42,804 nt of DNA, taken from positions 1 through 42,804 of the forward strand of contig REDG01000042.1 in the NCBI GenBank assembly GCA_007693605.1. Reading direction: 5' to 3'. Shown here in pieces: positions 19,001 to 39,147 of the stretch. Below the pieces are notes generated by a model, which searched no databases, was not told the DNA's origin, and saw only the letters and a list, made by a program, of their open reading frames with translations. A program made the translations under genes and the position numbers. This DNA comes from Bradymonadales bacterium (GTDB lineage Bacteria; Bdellovibrionota; UBA2394). The stretch's first letter is position 1. Each line of letters opens with the position of its first letter.

Positions 19001-19085
19001 GGGGTCGGGAGACGGAAGTGCCAGACTAGCGCTGGCGAAAAAACGGACCTTATTTTCTAGTCTGGCTCGTTTGTCTCCCGACCCC
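19001..19085. terminator. long imperfect hairpin, 3' arm is the end of lexA
   Basis: GGGGTCGGGAGAC and GCCAGACTAG on the left are matched in reverse by CTAGTCTGGC and GTCTCCCGACCCC on the right, separated by short unpaired stretches and a 29-base loop. The right arm is the last 12 codons of the minus-strand lexA; the left arm lies beyond its stop. It sits between convergent genes and can end transcription from both sides. Confidence 0.75.
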
Positions 19086-19673
19086 ATACCGATGTAAACC
19101 CACAACCTGACCCAAAACTCGAAAGTCGGGATCGGTGACTTCCCAGGGGGAGTATCTGGGGTTCTCCGGCTTGAGCCAGATTTTTTTTCGTTTGTAAATG
19201 AGTCGCTTGACCGTGACCTCCCCCCACTCCATTCCGACGATAATCTCCCGATCTTGAGCTCGCTCTTTCTGTTTCACAATCACAAAGTCTCCGTCTTCGA
19301 TACCCGCCTCCGTCATACTATCCCCCCTGATTTTTAGCGCAAAATGTGGACCCCGAAATTCAGTGGGCAAGGCCAACTCTCCTTCATGAGCCTCATAGGC
19401 CTCTGAGGGAGGGCCTGCGGGTGCCGTTCCTAAAATTGGAATTCGCCGAAGCGGCGTCGCTTCAGAAAAACGATAGGAGCGACCCTCCTTCTGAAGATAG
19501 TCTTTGTCCACCAAGGCCCGAACCACATCCTGAGCGCTGCCCACAGCCCTCCATTCCATCTCTCGACAAATCTCTCGAAGGCTCGGCATTCTGCCCCGCT
19601 CTAAGAAGCTCTTCTTTAAATACCGATAGACGGCAAATTGGCTGGGTGACAAAGAACGAGAATCTGATACCAT
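19050..19673 (-). CDS. lexA: LexA SOS repressor / self-cleaving serine peptidase
   Basis: 207 residues from the ATG at 19673. N-terminal winged helix (1-70): L-S-P-S-Q-F-A-V-Y-R-Y-L, P-S-L-R-E-I-C-R. Cleavage site A-G at 86-87 (T-A-P-A-G-P-P), catalytic Ser119 in G-D-S-M and Lys156 in T-V-K-R-L. So RecA-stimulated self-cleavage is expected. The frame extends upstream to 19745, but the ATG at 19673 fits the LexA family length and lies inside the operator palindrome; no Shine-Dalgarno is seen, so the message may be leaderless. The divergent neighbours are SOS mutasome genes, which fits a local regulator. Confidence 0.92.
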   Translation of the reverse strand: MVSDSRSLSPSQFAVYRYLKKSFLERGRMPSLREICREMEWRAVGSAQDVVRALVDKDYLQKEGRSYRFSEATPLRRIPILGTAPAGPPSEAYEAHEGELALPTEFRGPHFALKIRGDSMTEAGIEDGDFVIVKQKERAQDREIIVGMEWGEVTVKRLIYKRKKIWLKPENPRYSPWEVTDPDFRVLGQVVGLHRYGVGRQTSQTRK

Positions 19674-19688
19674 ACAAATGTATGGTAT
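19667..19688. promoter_or_regulatory. palindromic operator shared by lexA and the imuA-imuB-dnaE2 operon
   Basis: Arms ATACCATACA and TGTATGGTAT are perfect inverted repeats separated by AA. On each strand the sequence TGTATGGTAT supplies the ATG start: lexA from 19673 on the minus strand, imuA from 19682 on the plus strand. Symmetry and position make this the likely LexA box of this organism, different from E. coli CTGT-N8-ACAG. Confidence 0.8.
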
Positions 19689-20227
19689 TTGAAGATCCCC
19701 CAAAAAAGCAAGCCCTTCTCTCTCTAAAAAAGTCTCGCTGCGCATTCACCCAATGGTCAGGAAGAGAAAGCGAAGGTCAAATTCGAGCCTGTCTCGAACA
19801 AATCCCCTCTAACAAACGACTTTGTTGGGTTCGATCCGATTGGCATATTTACGCCCCACTGCTCTGGACTCTGGCAGAAGATAAAGAAATTTTTTTAATC
19901 GGGATAGAAAGCCCAAAGGCTGCAAAAAGACGGCTTTTTTGGCAGGAACTCAGTCAGCTTGCTTTTTTTGATATCTGGGTTCTCGATCAGCTATCGATTT
20001 CGCAAGCCGAAGCTCTTTTCTTGAGAGCTCTTCTTCAACAACACCCCATTGAAGTTGTTTTTATTCAAAGCGCGAGCATCTCATTTTGTCAGAAGAAATT
20101 TGAGGTTCGACACTCACATCATCAACTGCGCGTTGAACAGAAAAAAGGGTCGGCGCCAAATATTCGCTATCGAGACAACCCCTATCTTCAATTTAGTAGA
20201 GAGAATTTTTATGTTCGCTCTCAGTGA
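19682..20227 (+). CDS. imuA: ImuA-like (SulA/RecA-fold) SOS protein
   Basis: 181 residues from the ATG inside the operator (M-V-F-E-D-P-P). It is the only ATG in the region, and no Shine-Dalgarno is visible. The middle (W-V-R-S-D-W-H-I-Y-A-P-L-L-W-T-L, then I-E-S-P-K-A-A-K-R-R-L-F-W) resembles the truncated RecA-like fold of ImuA/SulA-type proteins, but similarity is weak; the name rests mainly on its place before imuB and dnaE2. It lacks Walker A. Role: accessory factor of the error-prone polymerase complex. It overlaps imuB by 17 bases. Confidence 0.6.
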   Translation: MVFEDPPKKQALLSLKKSRCAFTQWSGRESEGQIRACLEQIPSNKRLCWVRSDWHIYAPLLWTLAEDKEIFLIGIESPKAAKRRLFWQELSQLAFFDIWVLDQLSISQAEALFLRALLQQHPIEVVFIQSASISFCQKKFEVRHSHHQLRVEQKKGSAPNIRYRDNPYLQFSRENFYVRSQ

Positions 20228-21341
20228 TGAGTTCAAAGACTTATCCCCTCAAGTGATGCGGTTTCGGCTCGTCTGGATCTATGACTGCACTGGCGTCTCT
20301 AATTTCTGGAAAAACAAAATTCGATCTGAAAAAGCGGTGCTTACTGAAGATTCTGCCTGGAAGTTGATTTGTAAATTCTATGGAATTCATTTATTCTCTT
20401 CACTTCAAGAATTAGAAAATCTTTCAAAAACTTATTTTGAAGAATTTAATCTTAAAGTCAGTCCCCAACAACAACTGAAAGTTTATACGCAGCTGCGCCG
20501 ACTGGGGCTCACAAAAGTGGGGCACCTCAAAAAAATCCCAGACGATCAAATCCAAAGGAGATGGGGCAAAGATTGGCTCAATTTTTTCAGAGGCGTCTTG
20601 GGCTCTCCGAAGGCCGTTTGGCCGTGGATTCCTCATCGAAAAATTAAAGAGTTTAGACTTAAAAAAGCCTTCGACTTTGGCGTTTGTGACAGCGCCATTC
20701 TCATTGAAGAGAGCTTAGAGCTTCTACTTCAACTCTCAAAGGAACAAAGCCAGATTCATCTGAGGCAAATCGATATTTTTCTGGGCTCTCAAGAAGAGGG
20801 TGCTGATTTTCATCTCCCGTTTCTTTTTCATTCTTCTCCCCTTCTAGCCCAGTCTTTTGATTGGCTGAAGAAGCTGTTTATTCTGAGGTTCTCACAAATT
20901 GAACTTTTAGCCCCTCTCTCACAAATAGAAATCAAGCTGCTTCCTGCTGAAGCTCCCAGAGCCCAGCAACTCCATCTTTTTCAGACAAAACCTGCCGCCG
21001 TCTCTGTTTCTGAAATCACAGAACGACTCTCAAGCTTGGGGGCAAAAATCTTCCAGCCCCAAGGGCTGCCCTCTCGACTACCAGAAAGATCTTGGCACAA
21101 GGTGGCGCCCAAAGAAAATTTTAAAATCTCGACCCCTCCACTCTACTACCCCCTCATTCAACATAGGCCCAAAGAGATTCCCCAACCAAGAGCAGAGCTG
21201 TATCTCGTCGAACAGCTTGTTGAATTTGAGGCTTCGGGTGAAGAACTGAGACGAGACTATTTTGTAGCTTTTATGAACGGGCGTTGGCGCTGGATCTTTA
21301 AAGATCAAACTCAGAAATGGTTTCAACAGGGCCTGATTTAG
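20211..21341 (+). CDS. imuB: ImuB-like Y-family-related mutasome protein
   Basis: 376 residues from ATG 20211 (GAGAG upstream); the frame is open further but overlaps imuA. Residues 90-150 (L-R-R-L-G-L-T-K-V-G-H-L-K-K-I-P, R-W-G-K-D-W) match the helix-hairpin-helix thumb of ImuB, followed by a little-finger-like region. ImuB is a catalytically inactive Y-family relative that links DnaE2 to the sliding clamp. This copy is shorter than the usual about 500 residues and has a reduced N-terminal palm. A clamp-binding peptide is not obvious. It is 18 bases before dnaE2. Confidence 0.75.
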   Translation: MFALSDEFKDLSPQVMRFRLVWIYDCTGVSNFWKNKIRSEKAVLTEDSAWKLICKFYGIHLFSSLQELENLSKTYFEEFNLKVSPQQQLKVYTQLRRLGLTKVGHLKKIPDDQIQRRWGKDWLNFFRGVLGSPKAVWPWIPHRKIKEFRLKKAFDFGVCDSAILIEESLELLLQLSKEQSQIHLRQIDIFLGSQEEGADFHLPFLFHSSPLLAQSFDWLKKLFILRFSQIELLAPLSQIEIKLLPAEAPRAQQLHLFQTKPAAVSVSEITERLSSLGAKIFQPQGLPSRLPERSWHKVAPKENFKISTPPLYYPLIQHRPKEIPQPRAELYLVEQLVEFEASGEELRRDYFVAFMNGRWRWIFKDQTQKWFQQGLI

Positions 21342-21359: not shown

Positions 21360-24300
21360 ATGGATTCTCTTTATAAAAACTCTTTTTCTGAACTCTCTGC
21401 CAGAAGCTGCTTTTCATTTCTTCAGGCCGCCTCTCAACCTGAGGAACTGATTGAAGCTGCCGCTCAAAGCGGCTACCACTCTATTTTTTTGACAGATCGG
21501 AATGGGTTCTACGGGATGGTTCGAGCCTACGAGGCCTGTGAAAGAATTGGCCTCCCTTTCCGAGTTGGAGTTGAGCTTTGTATTGAAAACTCCGCCCTAC
21601 TTATTTTAGTAAAAGACCTCAAAGGCTATCGTCGAATCTGTCGACTCATTTCGGAGGGCTTTCGCCTGAAGGAGAAAAATCAGCTCCAAATCGATCGAGA
21701 GGCTCTTGAAAAGTGGGTCGATCCTCAACATCATTTTGTCGTATTGCCCCCGAGAAACTTTCCCTCTTTCGATCTTCTCGGGTTTTATCAAAACCACTTT
21801 CCCTTCTATCAGCTAGTGACTCGTCGGTTCGAATCGACCCAAGACGAAAAAATGAAAAAATGGCTACAGAATCTTTCAAAGGAGGTGCCCCTCGTTTGGA
21901 GTTGGGATGTTTTTTTTCATGATCCCTCTAGGTTCGAGCTCTTTCACTGCATGGAGGCGATTCGAAAAAATCAAAGACTCTCTGAGACGCTTGCTTCTGT
22001 GAACTCGAAGGCCTGTATTCAGCCTCTAAGTCTGCTGAAACAACTCTCTGTCCCTAAAGAGTGGGTTTATCGAAGTCGTGAAATATCAGAGTCTTGCTCT
22101 TTTCATCCCAAGGAAATCCAATATCACTACCCAAGGGAGTGGCTGCCCAAAGGGAAAACCCCCAGCCAGTTTTTAAGAGAGCTTTGCGAAAAAGCTCTCT
22201 GCGAGCGATACTCCAACGGAGAGCCGCCAAACACGAGAAAGCAACTTGAACACGAGCTTCAACTTCTTCAGGAGCTCCAGTATGAAGATTATTTTTTAAG
22301 CGTGTGGGATATTGTGAATTTTGCCAGATCTCGAGGCATTTTATGCCAAGGTCGAGGCTCTGCCGCAAATTCTCTGGTTTGCTATCTTTTAGGAATCACC
22401 AGTATCGATCCCGTACAAATGAATCTCTTGTTTGAAAGATTCGTCTCGAAAGAGAGAAATGAGGCGCCAGATATTGATATCGACTTTGAGCATGAGCGAA
22501 GAGAAGAGGTTATTCAATATGTCTACCGAAAATACGGACGGCACCGAGCGGGATTGGTCGCCACCCTAATCTGCTATCGAACAAAGTCAGCAATTCGCGA
22601 TATGGGAAAAGCCCTCGGATTCACACCAGAGATTTTAGACGAATTGAGCCGCAAGGCCCGCTGGCGAGAGCCTGTCTTAGAAACCAAGACAGAAGACAAG
22701 GGCTTGCAGCGACTTTTTCGACTCGCCAAAGAGCTTCGGGGATTTCCGAGGCATTTAGGACAACACACGGGCGGAATGATTATCTCACAAGACCGACTTG
22801 ATGAAATGAGCCCCATCGAACCCGCAAGAATGAAAGACCGAAGTATTGTTCAATGGGATAAATATGATGTTGAGAAACTCGGTCTTCTGAAAATTGATTT
22901 GCTTGGCCTGGGAATGCTGACCTGCCTTCGAAAAAGCTTTGAACTTCTTGAAAAGCACAAGATCGCAAAGCTTCGCCTCGACACCCTACCCGCAGACGAT
23001 CCGAAGACTTATCAAATGATTTCTCGATCTCAGACTGTGGGGCTTTTTCAAATTGAATCGAGAGCCCAAATGAGCATGCTTCCAAGACTTCAGCCCCGAT
23101 CTTTTTATGACCTTGTCATTGAAATCGCCATTGTTCGGCCAGGCCCAATTCAGGGCGGAATGGTTCATCCCTATCTTCGCCGCCGAATGGGGCTCGAATC
23201 GGTGTCTTATGCTCACCCTAAACTGAAGCCCATTCTTGAAAAGACTTTGGGAGTTCCAATTTTTCAAGAGCAGGTCATGAAAATGGCCATTGAAGTGGCC
23301 GGCTATAGTGCCGGTGAGGCCGATCAACTGAGGCGCGCGATGGGGGCCTGGAGAAAAAGAGGAGATTTGAGTAAGCATGCCGCTGACCTTCAACACCGTC
23401 TGGAAAAGAGCGGGATTGATCGAGAATTTTCGGAGCGAATCTGCCAACAAATCTTAGGCTTTGGAGAATACGGCTTTCCTGAATCTCACGCCGCCAGCTT
23501 TGCACTTTTAACCTATGCCTCTGCTTATTTAAAAGCACACTACCCTTCTGTTTATCTCTGCGCTCTTCTCAATTCACTTCCTATGGGCTTCTATCCTCCA
23601 CACAGCCTTCACTTCAGCTTTCGAAGAGAGGGCGTCAATATTCTACCCATCGATCTCTATCAGTCGGAATGGGATCATCGCATAGAAAAAAGGGTATCCT
23701 CTCTCGCCCTTCGACTCGGGTTTCGGGCAGTGAAGGGTCTTTCAAGAGAAGCTTGTCAGAGATTTCTTTTAGAAAGAGATCAAGGCCTCACTCCCCATTG
23801 CAAAACGGCAAACTCTCTTTCTGATTCAAACTCTAGTTTAAACGAAGAGCGAATGTCCCGACTCCTCGAACAGCATTTCGAGTCTGATGATCGTTCTGAA
23901 TTGGCTCTTCTTACAGGAAAAGATCGAAAGCAGTCTTACTGGAGCAGTCTTAAGCCGAAGTCTCCTCCTTTAATTTCTCAGAAGGAAATAAGCTTGAAGT
24001 GGAAGTCTCTGAGTGAGTGGGAACATCTTCTGCTTGATTTCGAGCTGATGGATAGCAGCCTTCAGGAGCATCCCGCAAAGATTTATAAAAAAGAGAAATG
24101 GAACTACCCCGTCTCTCTCTCAAAAATCAAGCTGGCCTCTCAACTGGAGAAGGAAAAGGCGGGAGTGGGCTTCTTCGTGTTTGGAATGATTCAGAGCCTG
24201 CAAAGCCCCCCGACCGCAAAGGGGATGGTCTTTCTCACACTCGAGGATGAAAGCGGATTTCTTAATTTGATTTTTGATCCCCCGACTTACAAAAATTTCA

Positions 24301-24488
24301 AAGCCGTTCTTCAAAAGTCTTGGGGAATTCTTGCCTTTGGAAGACTCCAGAAAACAAGCTCTTATACTTCCATAAAAGTTCAGAGCCTGATTGAGCCGAA
24401 GGCTCTTAATTGCGAAATAAGATCAAGCCGTGAGACAGATCGTAGGGTGACAAGCCCACGGTTACTCGGTCACCGGGCATCACCTTAA
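21360..24488 (+). CDS. dnaE2: error-prone DNA polymerase III alpha subunit DnaE2
   Basis: 1042 residues, typical of DnaE2 and shorter than DnaE. N-terminal PHP domain (S-E-L-S-A-R-S-C-F-S-F-L, T-D-R-N-G-F-Y-G). Polymerase core with G-R-G-S-A-A-N-S-L-V-C-Y and catalytic aspartates in P-D-I-D-I-D-F near residue 370; D-L-L-G-L-G-M-L and G-E-Y-G-F-P-E-S-H-A-A-S-F-A-L-L follow. C-terminal OB fold (T-A-K-G-M-V-F-L-T-L-E-D-E-S-G) at about 935-985. It performs mutagenic translesion synthesis with ImuA/ImuB under SOS control. The last 27 codons are antisense to infA; the reading past the OB domain (S-S-R-E-T-D-R-R-V) looks like an added tail. Confidence 0.95.
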   Translation: MDSLYKNSFSELSARSCFSFLQAASQPEELIEAAAQSGYHSIFLTDRNGFYGMVRAYEACERIGLPFRVGVELCIENSALLILVKDLKGYRRICRLISEGFRLKEKNQLQIDREALEKWVDPQHHFVVLPPRNFPSFDLLGFYQNHFPFYQLVTRRFESTQDEKMKKWLQNLSKEVPLVWSWDVFFHDPSRFELFHCMEAIRKNQRLSETLASVNSKACIQPLSLLKQLSVPKEWVYRSREISESCSFHPKEIQYHYPREWLPKGKTPSQFLRELCEKALCERYSNGEPPNTRKQLEHELQLLQELQYEDYFLSVWDIVNFARSRGILCQGRGSAANSLVCYLLGITSIDPVQMNLLFERFVSKERNEAPDIDIDFEHERREEVIQYVYRKYGRHRAGLVATLICYRTKSAIRDMGKALGFTPEILDELSRKARWREPVLETKTEDKGLQRLFRLAKELRGFPRHLGQHTGGMIISQDRLDEMSPIEPARMKDRSIVQWDKYDVEKLGLLKIDLLGLGMLTCLRKSFELLEKHKIAKLRLDTLPADDPKTYQMISRSQTVGLFQIESRAQMSMLPRLQPRSFYDLVIEIAIVRPGPIQGGMVHPYLRRRMGLESVSYAHPKLKPILEKTLGVPIFQEQVMKMAIEVAGYSAGEADQLRRAMGAWRKRGDLSKHAADLQHRLEKSGIDREFSERICQQILGFGEYGFPESHAASFALLTYASAYLKAHYPSVYLCALLNSLPMGFYPPHSLHFSFRREGVNILPIDLYQSEWDHRIEKRVSSLALRLGFRAVKGLSREACQRFLLERDQGLTPHCKTANSLSDSNSSLNEERMSRLLEQHFESDDRSELALLTGKDRKQSYWSSLKPKSPPLISQKEISLKWKSLSEWEHLLLDFELMDSSLQEHPAKIYKKEKWNYPVSLSKIKLASQLEKEKAGVGFFVFGMIQSLQSPPTAKGMVFLTLEDESGFLNLIFDPPTYKNFKAVLQKSWGILAFGRLQKTSSYTSIKVQSLIEPKALNCEIRSSRETDRRVTSPRLLGHRASP

Positions 24489-39118: not shown

Positions 39119-39147
39119 AACCCCCCGCCAATGGCGGGGGGTTTTTT
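39119..39147 (+). terminator. rho-independent terminator after pilA
   Basis: CCCCCCGCC and GGCGGGGGG pair around AAT, followed by TTTTTT. AAAA before the stem gives a weaker T-run on the other strand for the convergent STT3-like gene. Confidence 0.92.

Follow-up and report, generated by a model that had tools for sequence, protein, structure and literature searches.

A predicted LexA operator that contains both start codons of the divergent lexA and imuA-imuB-dnaE2 genes

Can one short palindrome serve as the operator, the promoter core and the place of both start codons for two divergent transcription units? The question is raised by the region between lexA and imuA-imuB-dnaE2 in the window (that is, the whole stretch of 42,804 nucleotides that we analysed), where ATACCATACA-AA-TGTATGGTAT forms a perfect inverted repeat with 10-bp arms that are 100% complementary and separated by a 2-nt gap, around the conserved core CCATACA-N2-TGTATGG at 19670-19685 (Table 1). 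The ATG of imuA (19682-19684, plus strand) sits in the right half of the palindrome and that of lexA (19673-19671, minus strand) in the left half, which also reads TGTATGGTAT on the minus strand; hence, because the palindrome is symmetric, there is one ATG per half, and since GTA directly follows the ATG in both genes, both proteins open with Met-Val. The preliminary description of this DNA had reported a perfect 22-bp inverted repeat between the divergent genes, which is exact, and had a palindrome half supplying the ATG of each gene, which needs rewording: both ATGs are inside, with each half giving one. Overall, our results support that description as right on the site and largely right on the meaning, the arrangement being real, deeply conserved and more intricate than was stated.

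It is important to note that the palindrome is not significant by chance statistics alone (an argument that we rejected), given that 0.55 perfect repeats with 10-bp arms and a gap of 4 nt or less are expected per first-order Markov copy of the window. What counts is instead where the palindrome lies and how widely it is kept: its significance is its conservation in 24 genomes (below) coupled to its uniqueness in its own 2.19-Mb genome, where it is the sole site at three or fewer mismatches over the 20 specified bases. A search of the window against Rfam gave no match. The window has just one further strong short palindrome, a G+C-rich inverted repeat (ACCCCCCGCC and its complement) at 39120-39142.

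Table 1. Coordinates of genes and predicted regulatory features at the lexA/imuA divergence, in window positions.
Feature	Position	Strand	Description
lexA	19050..19673	-	207 aa; ATG-GTA start in operator left half; winged helix-turn-helix plus S24 protease
Predicted imuA promoter	19646..19673	+	GTGACA-16-TACCAT with TG before -10; consensus match only
Predicted LexA operator (SOS box)	19667..19688	.	palindrome; box kept 5' of lexA in 24 genomes, five families
Spacer between lexA and imuA start codons	19674..19681	.	8 bp
imuA-like gene	19682..20227	+	181 aa; ATG-GTA start in operator right half
Candidate lexA promoter	19682..19711	-	-10 TACCAT 19687-19682, weak -35 TTGCTT 19711-19706, 18-nt spacer; inferred, read from the sequence
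imuB-like gene	20211..21341	+	short, ~376 aa; ORF plus homology to L045/L048 genes
dnaE2 (imuC), error-prone DNA polymerase	21360..24488	+	1042 aa; NF004225 1081 bits (cut-off 939)

The identity of the genes was assessed by profile searches. The LexA protein matches PF01726 (24.5 bits; cut-off 23.7), PF00717 (93 bits) and TIGR00498 (124.6 bits, above cut-off), and its translation shows an Ala-Gly site (TAPAGPP) plus Ser and Lys residues (GDSM, TVKRL), from which self-cleavage can be predicted. Direct domain and profile searches with the window ImuA gave no match; a profile match links it to the RecA-like ImuA proteins of family f8 (E 2.6e-6), one of which reaches the PF00154 cut-off. The RecA-like P-loop (GxxGxGKT) that f8 ImuA proteins keep is lost in the ImuA proteins of the window's own family, a loss that suggests that the latter work without ATP binding. 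For the ImuB-like protein, no Pfam match and no catalytic Y-family domain were detected. Its gene is homologous to genes sitting between imuA and dnaE2 at loci L045 and L048, and the L048 homologue, from family f16, matches IMS_C at 1.2e-5. Given its small size and lack of a detectable Y-family domain, the window protein may be a reduced scaffold.

To place the palindrome in its lineage, we looked at 97 genomes sampled from the same phylum, 76 of which returned a LexA relative. The upstream regions of 30 returned genome loci were examined in a first pass, and further loci were fetched afterwards. The core or a recognisable variant of it is present 5' of lexA in 24 genomes of five families (f1, which is the window genome's own family, f3, f7, f8 and f16), with LexA identity among relatives down to 37%, so that the palindrome that the preliminary description proposed to look for before lexA in related genomes is indeed there. 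The information content falls off on both sides beyond the palindrome. In the LexA tree, f1, f3+f16, f7 and f8 split into groups, and a box-less group is well supported. Families f9, f14 and f17 have a different sequence upstream of lexA, and in box-less families (loci L019, L023, L027, L028, L025, L029, L030 and L031), repeated TACGGA or TTACGCA-type sequences precede the gene, which may represent one or two additional LexA motifs of this phylum. Searching the genome contigs with LexA returned one distant locus (L032, 30% identity), which is without the box. Box-like sites in five other genomes (G006, G024, G154, G257, G329) do not adjoin lexA and are probably due to chance. One locus (L120, G050:C79) carries a perfect box, yet its lexA is split over two frames (frameshift or assembly error).

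The start codons follow the box as well. If positions are counted from the core's first C, lexA has its ATG at +12 in 18 of the 24 genomes and at +8, still in the box, in three more (L038, L041, L127); that is, lexA starts within the box in 21 genomes and downstream of it in the other three (L033, L048, L124). On the opposite side, imuA starts in the box in about 12 genomes of several families: at the mirror +12 in each of the five f1 genomes, where M1 and V2 are invariant in the alignment with own-family relatives, in five of eight f8 genomes (L038, L123, L124, L126, L127) and in f16 (L048), and probably at +8 in L039 and L122. In most f3 genomes, imuA begins 23-73 bases in on its own side. 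At least nine genomes (the window, L034, L035, L123, L126, L038, L127, L122 and L039) have both starts in the box. The ATG anticipated inside the palindrome is thus kept; however, as ATG belongs to the operator consensus, its conservation alone is no proof of a start codon, and the claim of in-box starts depends on the in-frame evidence and on missing upstream starts (below). Genome G002 is a natural experiment in this respect: lexA (L036, C61) and imuA-imuB-dnaE2 (L110, C55) are carried by different contigs, yet both have a whole box of their own and both start at +12.

Neither start has a Shine-Dalgarno (SD) sequence, as the preliminary description had stated: the duplex energies in the window are +2.2 kcal/mol for lexA and -1.9 kcal/mol for imuA, against a threshold of -6 kcal/mol or better for the anti-SD duplex. 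For comparison, a candidate start reaches -6 or better in 15 of 29 large ORFs of the window (a generous count that takes the best candidate per ORF). None of the 17 lexA starts at +12 that were tested reaches the threshold; in long ORFs of the same loci, 25% of the first ATGs and 10% of the internal ones do. Of ten imuA starts, one does. Conversely, two of the three lexA starts that moved out of the box have an SD (L124, aggagatgcaATG, -7.3; L048, -7.9; the third genome being L033). In-box starts without an SD and moved starts with one are what a leaderless design would predict, on a small sample of exceptions.

Each start region would also offer a putative promoter element to its neighbour. 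The predicted imuA promoter is the sole promoter-like site in 19550-19800 by consensus scan (0.1 expected by chance), and its -10 TACCAT (19668-19673), read on the opposite strand, gives codons 1-2 of lexA (ATG-GTA); from this match, the imuA transcript is predicted to start at about 19680-19682. The candidate lexA promoter is under the scan threshold, and its TACCAT is likewise the reverse complement of imuA codons 1-2 (ATG-GTA, 19682-19687). TACCAT would serve fairly well as a -10 hexamer of the facing gene, and since each ATG-GTA reads TACCAT on the other strand, the geometry suggests a bidirectional, probably leaderless promoter. The distance from TACCAT to the A of the ATG is 8 nt, which is slightly long, so a leader of 1-4 nt is about as probable as none; the prediction is consistent with the definition of leaderless messages as having transcript starts 0-6 nt before the AUG. 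As for bidirectional promoters, which are defined by divergent transcript starts 7-25 bp apart and overlapping symmetric -10 elements, symmetric TACCAT/ATGGTA pairs are present in the window as putative -10 elements. Relatives show comparable elements, read by eye: in f3 and f16, a recurrent TGGACA/TAGACA lies 16-19 bp before the box -10 on the lexA side and TTGACT/TTGATC/TTGACA lies 17 bp before TATGGT on the imuA side, where the element puts the predicted start on the imuA ATG at +23 in L043, L044 and L046.

We therefore estimate, with a probability of roughly three in four, that the palindrome would be a LexA operator that doubles as the core of a bidirectional promoter, the two messages beginning on their start codons or only a few bases away. 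Under this model, the half-site would be read three ways, as the LexA half-operator, as the Met-Val start of one gene and as the -10 (TACCAT) of the divergent gene, with each -35 region falling within the coding region of the adjoining gene. Bound to the site, a LexA dimer would close off the two -10 elements together with the two transcript starts; DNA damage would lead to RecA-stimulated self-cleavage of LexA and free the site, and the freed site would allow divergent transcription of lexA and imuA-imuB-dnaE2. The lexA and imuA mRNAs would then be translated as leaderless or nearly leaderless messages, with the two RNA polymerases in competition for one stretch of DNA.

Alternatively, the operator may overlap both starts while the transcripts begin well upstream, in the neighbouring gene, giving SD-less leaders that overlap antisense and leaving LexA to act as a roadblock. 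With 8 bp between the start codons, promoters within the neighbour's coding sequence are possible, and it would also fit that the lexA -35 is weak and that the scan finds a promoter on the imuA side only. Nevertheless, the single good promoter match points to a start at 19680-19682 rather than far upstream, the TGGACA/TAGACA elements of f3 and f16 are spaced with respect to the box -10, and the contrast between SD-less in-box starts and moved starts with an SD goes against long leaders; hence, we consider this scenario unlikely.

A less probable explanation still is that the operator is real and translation in fact begins at other codons (19745 or a TTG further downstream for lexA, a GTG further upstream for imuA), the in-box ATGs being in frame by chance. 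An in-frame lexA ATG at 19745 and an imuA GTG 36 nt upstream do exist in the window, and some relatives begin downstream. However, within the stretch examined, no in-frame ATG, GTG or TTG lies 5' of +12 for lexA in five relatives (G004, G001, G002, G351, G021; L034, L035, L036, L046, L123) and no in-frame start lies 5' of +12 for imuA in five (G001, G002, G351, G362, G059; L035, L110, L123, L126, L048), and 18 of 24 lexA genes share an in-frame ATG at an identical box position, all of which makes displaced starts very improbable. The 19745 start in particular, which the preliminary description had named as evidence against its reading, is unlikely because upstream starts are missing in relatives, its ATG has no SD (duplex -2.0) and the extension would overlie the divergent imuA coding strand.

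Is the palindrome bound by LexA? In family f7, the box lies 5' of recA (13 of 14 positions in G031, 12 of 14 in G010) and also 5' of dinB (G010), dnaE2 (G031) and, judged by eye, a probable radical-SAM gene (G031), and several of these are standard SOS genes. Together with its conservation before lexA itself, this indicates that the box is very probably the LexA operator of the lineage. That another regulator (e.g., an ImuA-linked or helix-turn-helix factor) binds the site and LexA does not is hardly credible, given that the box accompanies lexA in five families, precedes f7 recA, dinB and dnaE2, and that LexA normally autoregulates.

The box at recA, which the preliminary description had also suggested looking for, is found in family f7 but not in the window's own genome, nor in f1, f3 and f8 more generally, where the best matches upstream of recA are 7-9 of 14 positions; recA was thus rejected as a second target in the own genome (best match 7/14). 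The f1, f3 and f8 genomes with the box at lexA mostly have one site at one or fewer mismatches; G002 has two, and in L041 and L047 the box is too divergent to pass this threshold. In the own genome, one other site occurs within two mismatches, inside an ORF, and sites at 2-3 mismatches number 31 besides the operator vs. 19 in the reversed control; of these, the 14 whose flanks we read are mostly within ORFs and none resembles an SOS promoter, so we rejected them as operators. With the box once in the own genome and recA without it, the regulon may be a single operator. That is, the genome probably has no second strong LexA operator, the assembly being 90% complete and weaker sites (three or more mismatches) being possible; with a single strong operator, the SOS response would mainly consist of switching translesion mutagenesis.

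Elements of this arrangement are known from other systems. LexA-regulated imuA-imuB-dnaE2 cassettes have been reported in SOS regulons, and LexA motifs vary widely, with 17 counted, e.g., TTAC-N3-GTAA in Bdellovibrio and GGTT-N10-AACC in Geobacter (PMC8565304). The present cassette shares with these a LexA-type repressor adjoining imuA, imuB and dnaE2 and is presumably LexA-repressed, but it differs in that lexA is divergent, with its start codon 8 bp from that of imuA, and in that a single operator, which contains both starts, would serve the two genes, as well as in an ImuA without a recognisable P-loop and a short ImuB. Bdellovibrio bacteriovorus LexA, possibly from the same phylum, shares a palindrome and autoregulation (predicted here), whereas CCATACA-N2-TGTATGG matches neither the Bdellovibrio nor the Geobacter motif, the two of the 17 that were compared. 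Bidirectional promoters are common in E. coli, where a symmetric -10 drives divergent starts that are most often 18 bp apart (10 and 23 are also common), polymerases can exclude each other and AcrR represses both acrR and acrAB (PMC12825309, PMC10268837). The 10-bp class is close to the distance between the A's of the two ATGs here, but the symmetry here is also the predicted repressor operator and includes both start codons. Leaderless repressor mRNAs include lambda cI, Tn1721 tetR and acuR, the last with a transcript starting at the AUG beside its operator (PMC3293720, PMC3017554). Like LexA here, these are low-abundance autoregulatory repressors with SD-less translation (predicted here); unlike them, the repressor and its divergent target would both be leaderless and both start in one operator. 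Our search of the literature on LexA with Bdellovibrionota, Oligoflexia, leaderless messages and start-codon overlap, with most subscription papers outside its reach, found no such arrangement, which is a combination of known ingredients in a new way.

We see even odds that this amounts to an undescribed, lineage-wide SOS design, in which a new LexA motif has a half-site that would be the Met-Val of one gene and the -10 of the other, one dimer would control the bidirectional promoter of two leaderless messages, polymerase competition would couple repressor resynthesis to the mutagenic polymerase, and the regulon of several families would have shrunk to one operator. The results provide a testable LexA motif for a bacterial group so far uncharacterised and suggest a minimal SOS response confined to mutagenesis. 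They also offer a strong case of overlapping information, where the same bases would be the operator, codons 1-2 of one gene and the -10 of its neighbour, and make the linked evolution of operator, promoter and start codon directly testable across families.

Finally, box ATGs also open other frames. At the lexA end in G002, another short frame (MVSKVLAVGKY), truncated where the contig stops, begins at the mirror ATG as well. A radical-SAM-like gene (named by eye) near position 5039 of L117 (G031:C167) begins at the +12 ATG of a box copy, and starting inside the operator may thus extend beyond lexA and imuA.
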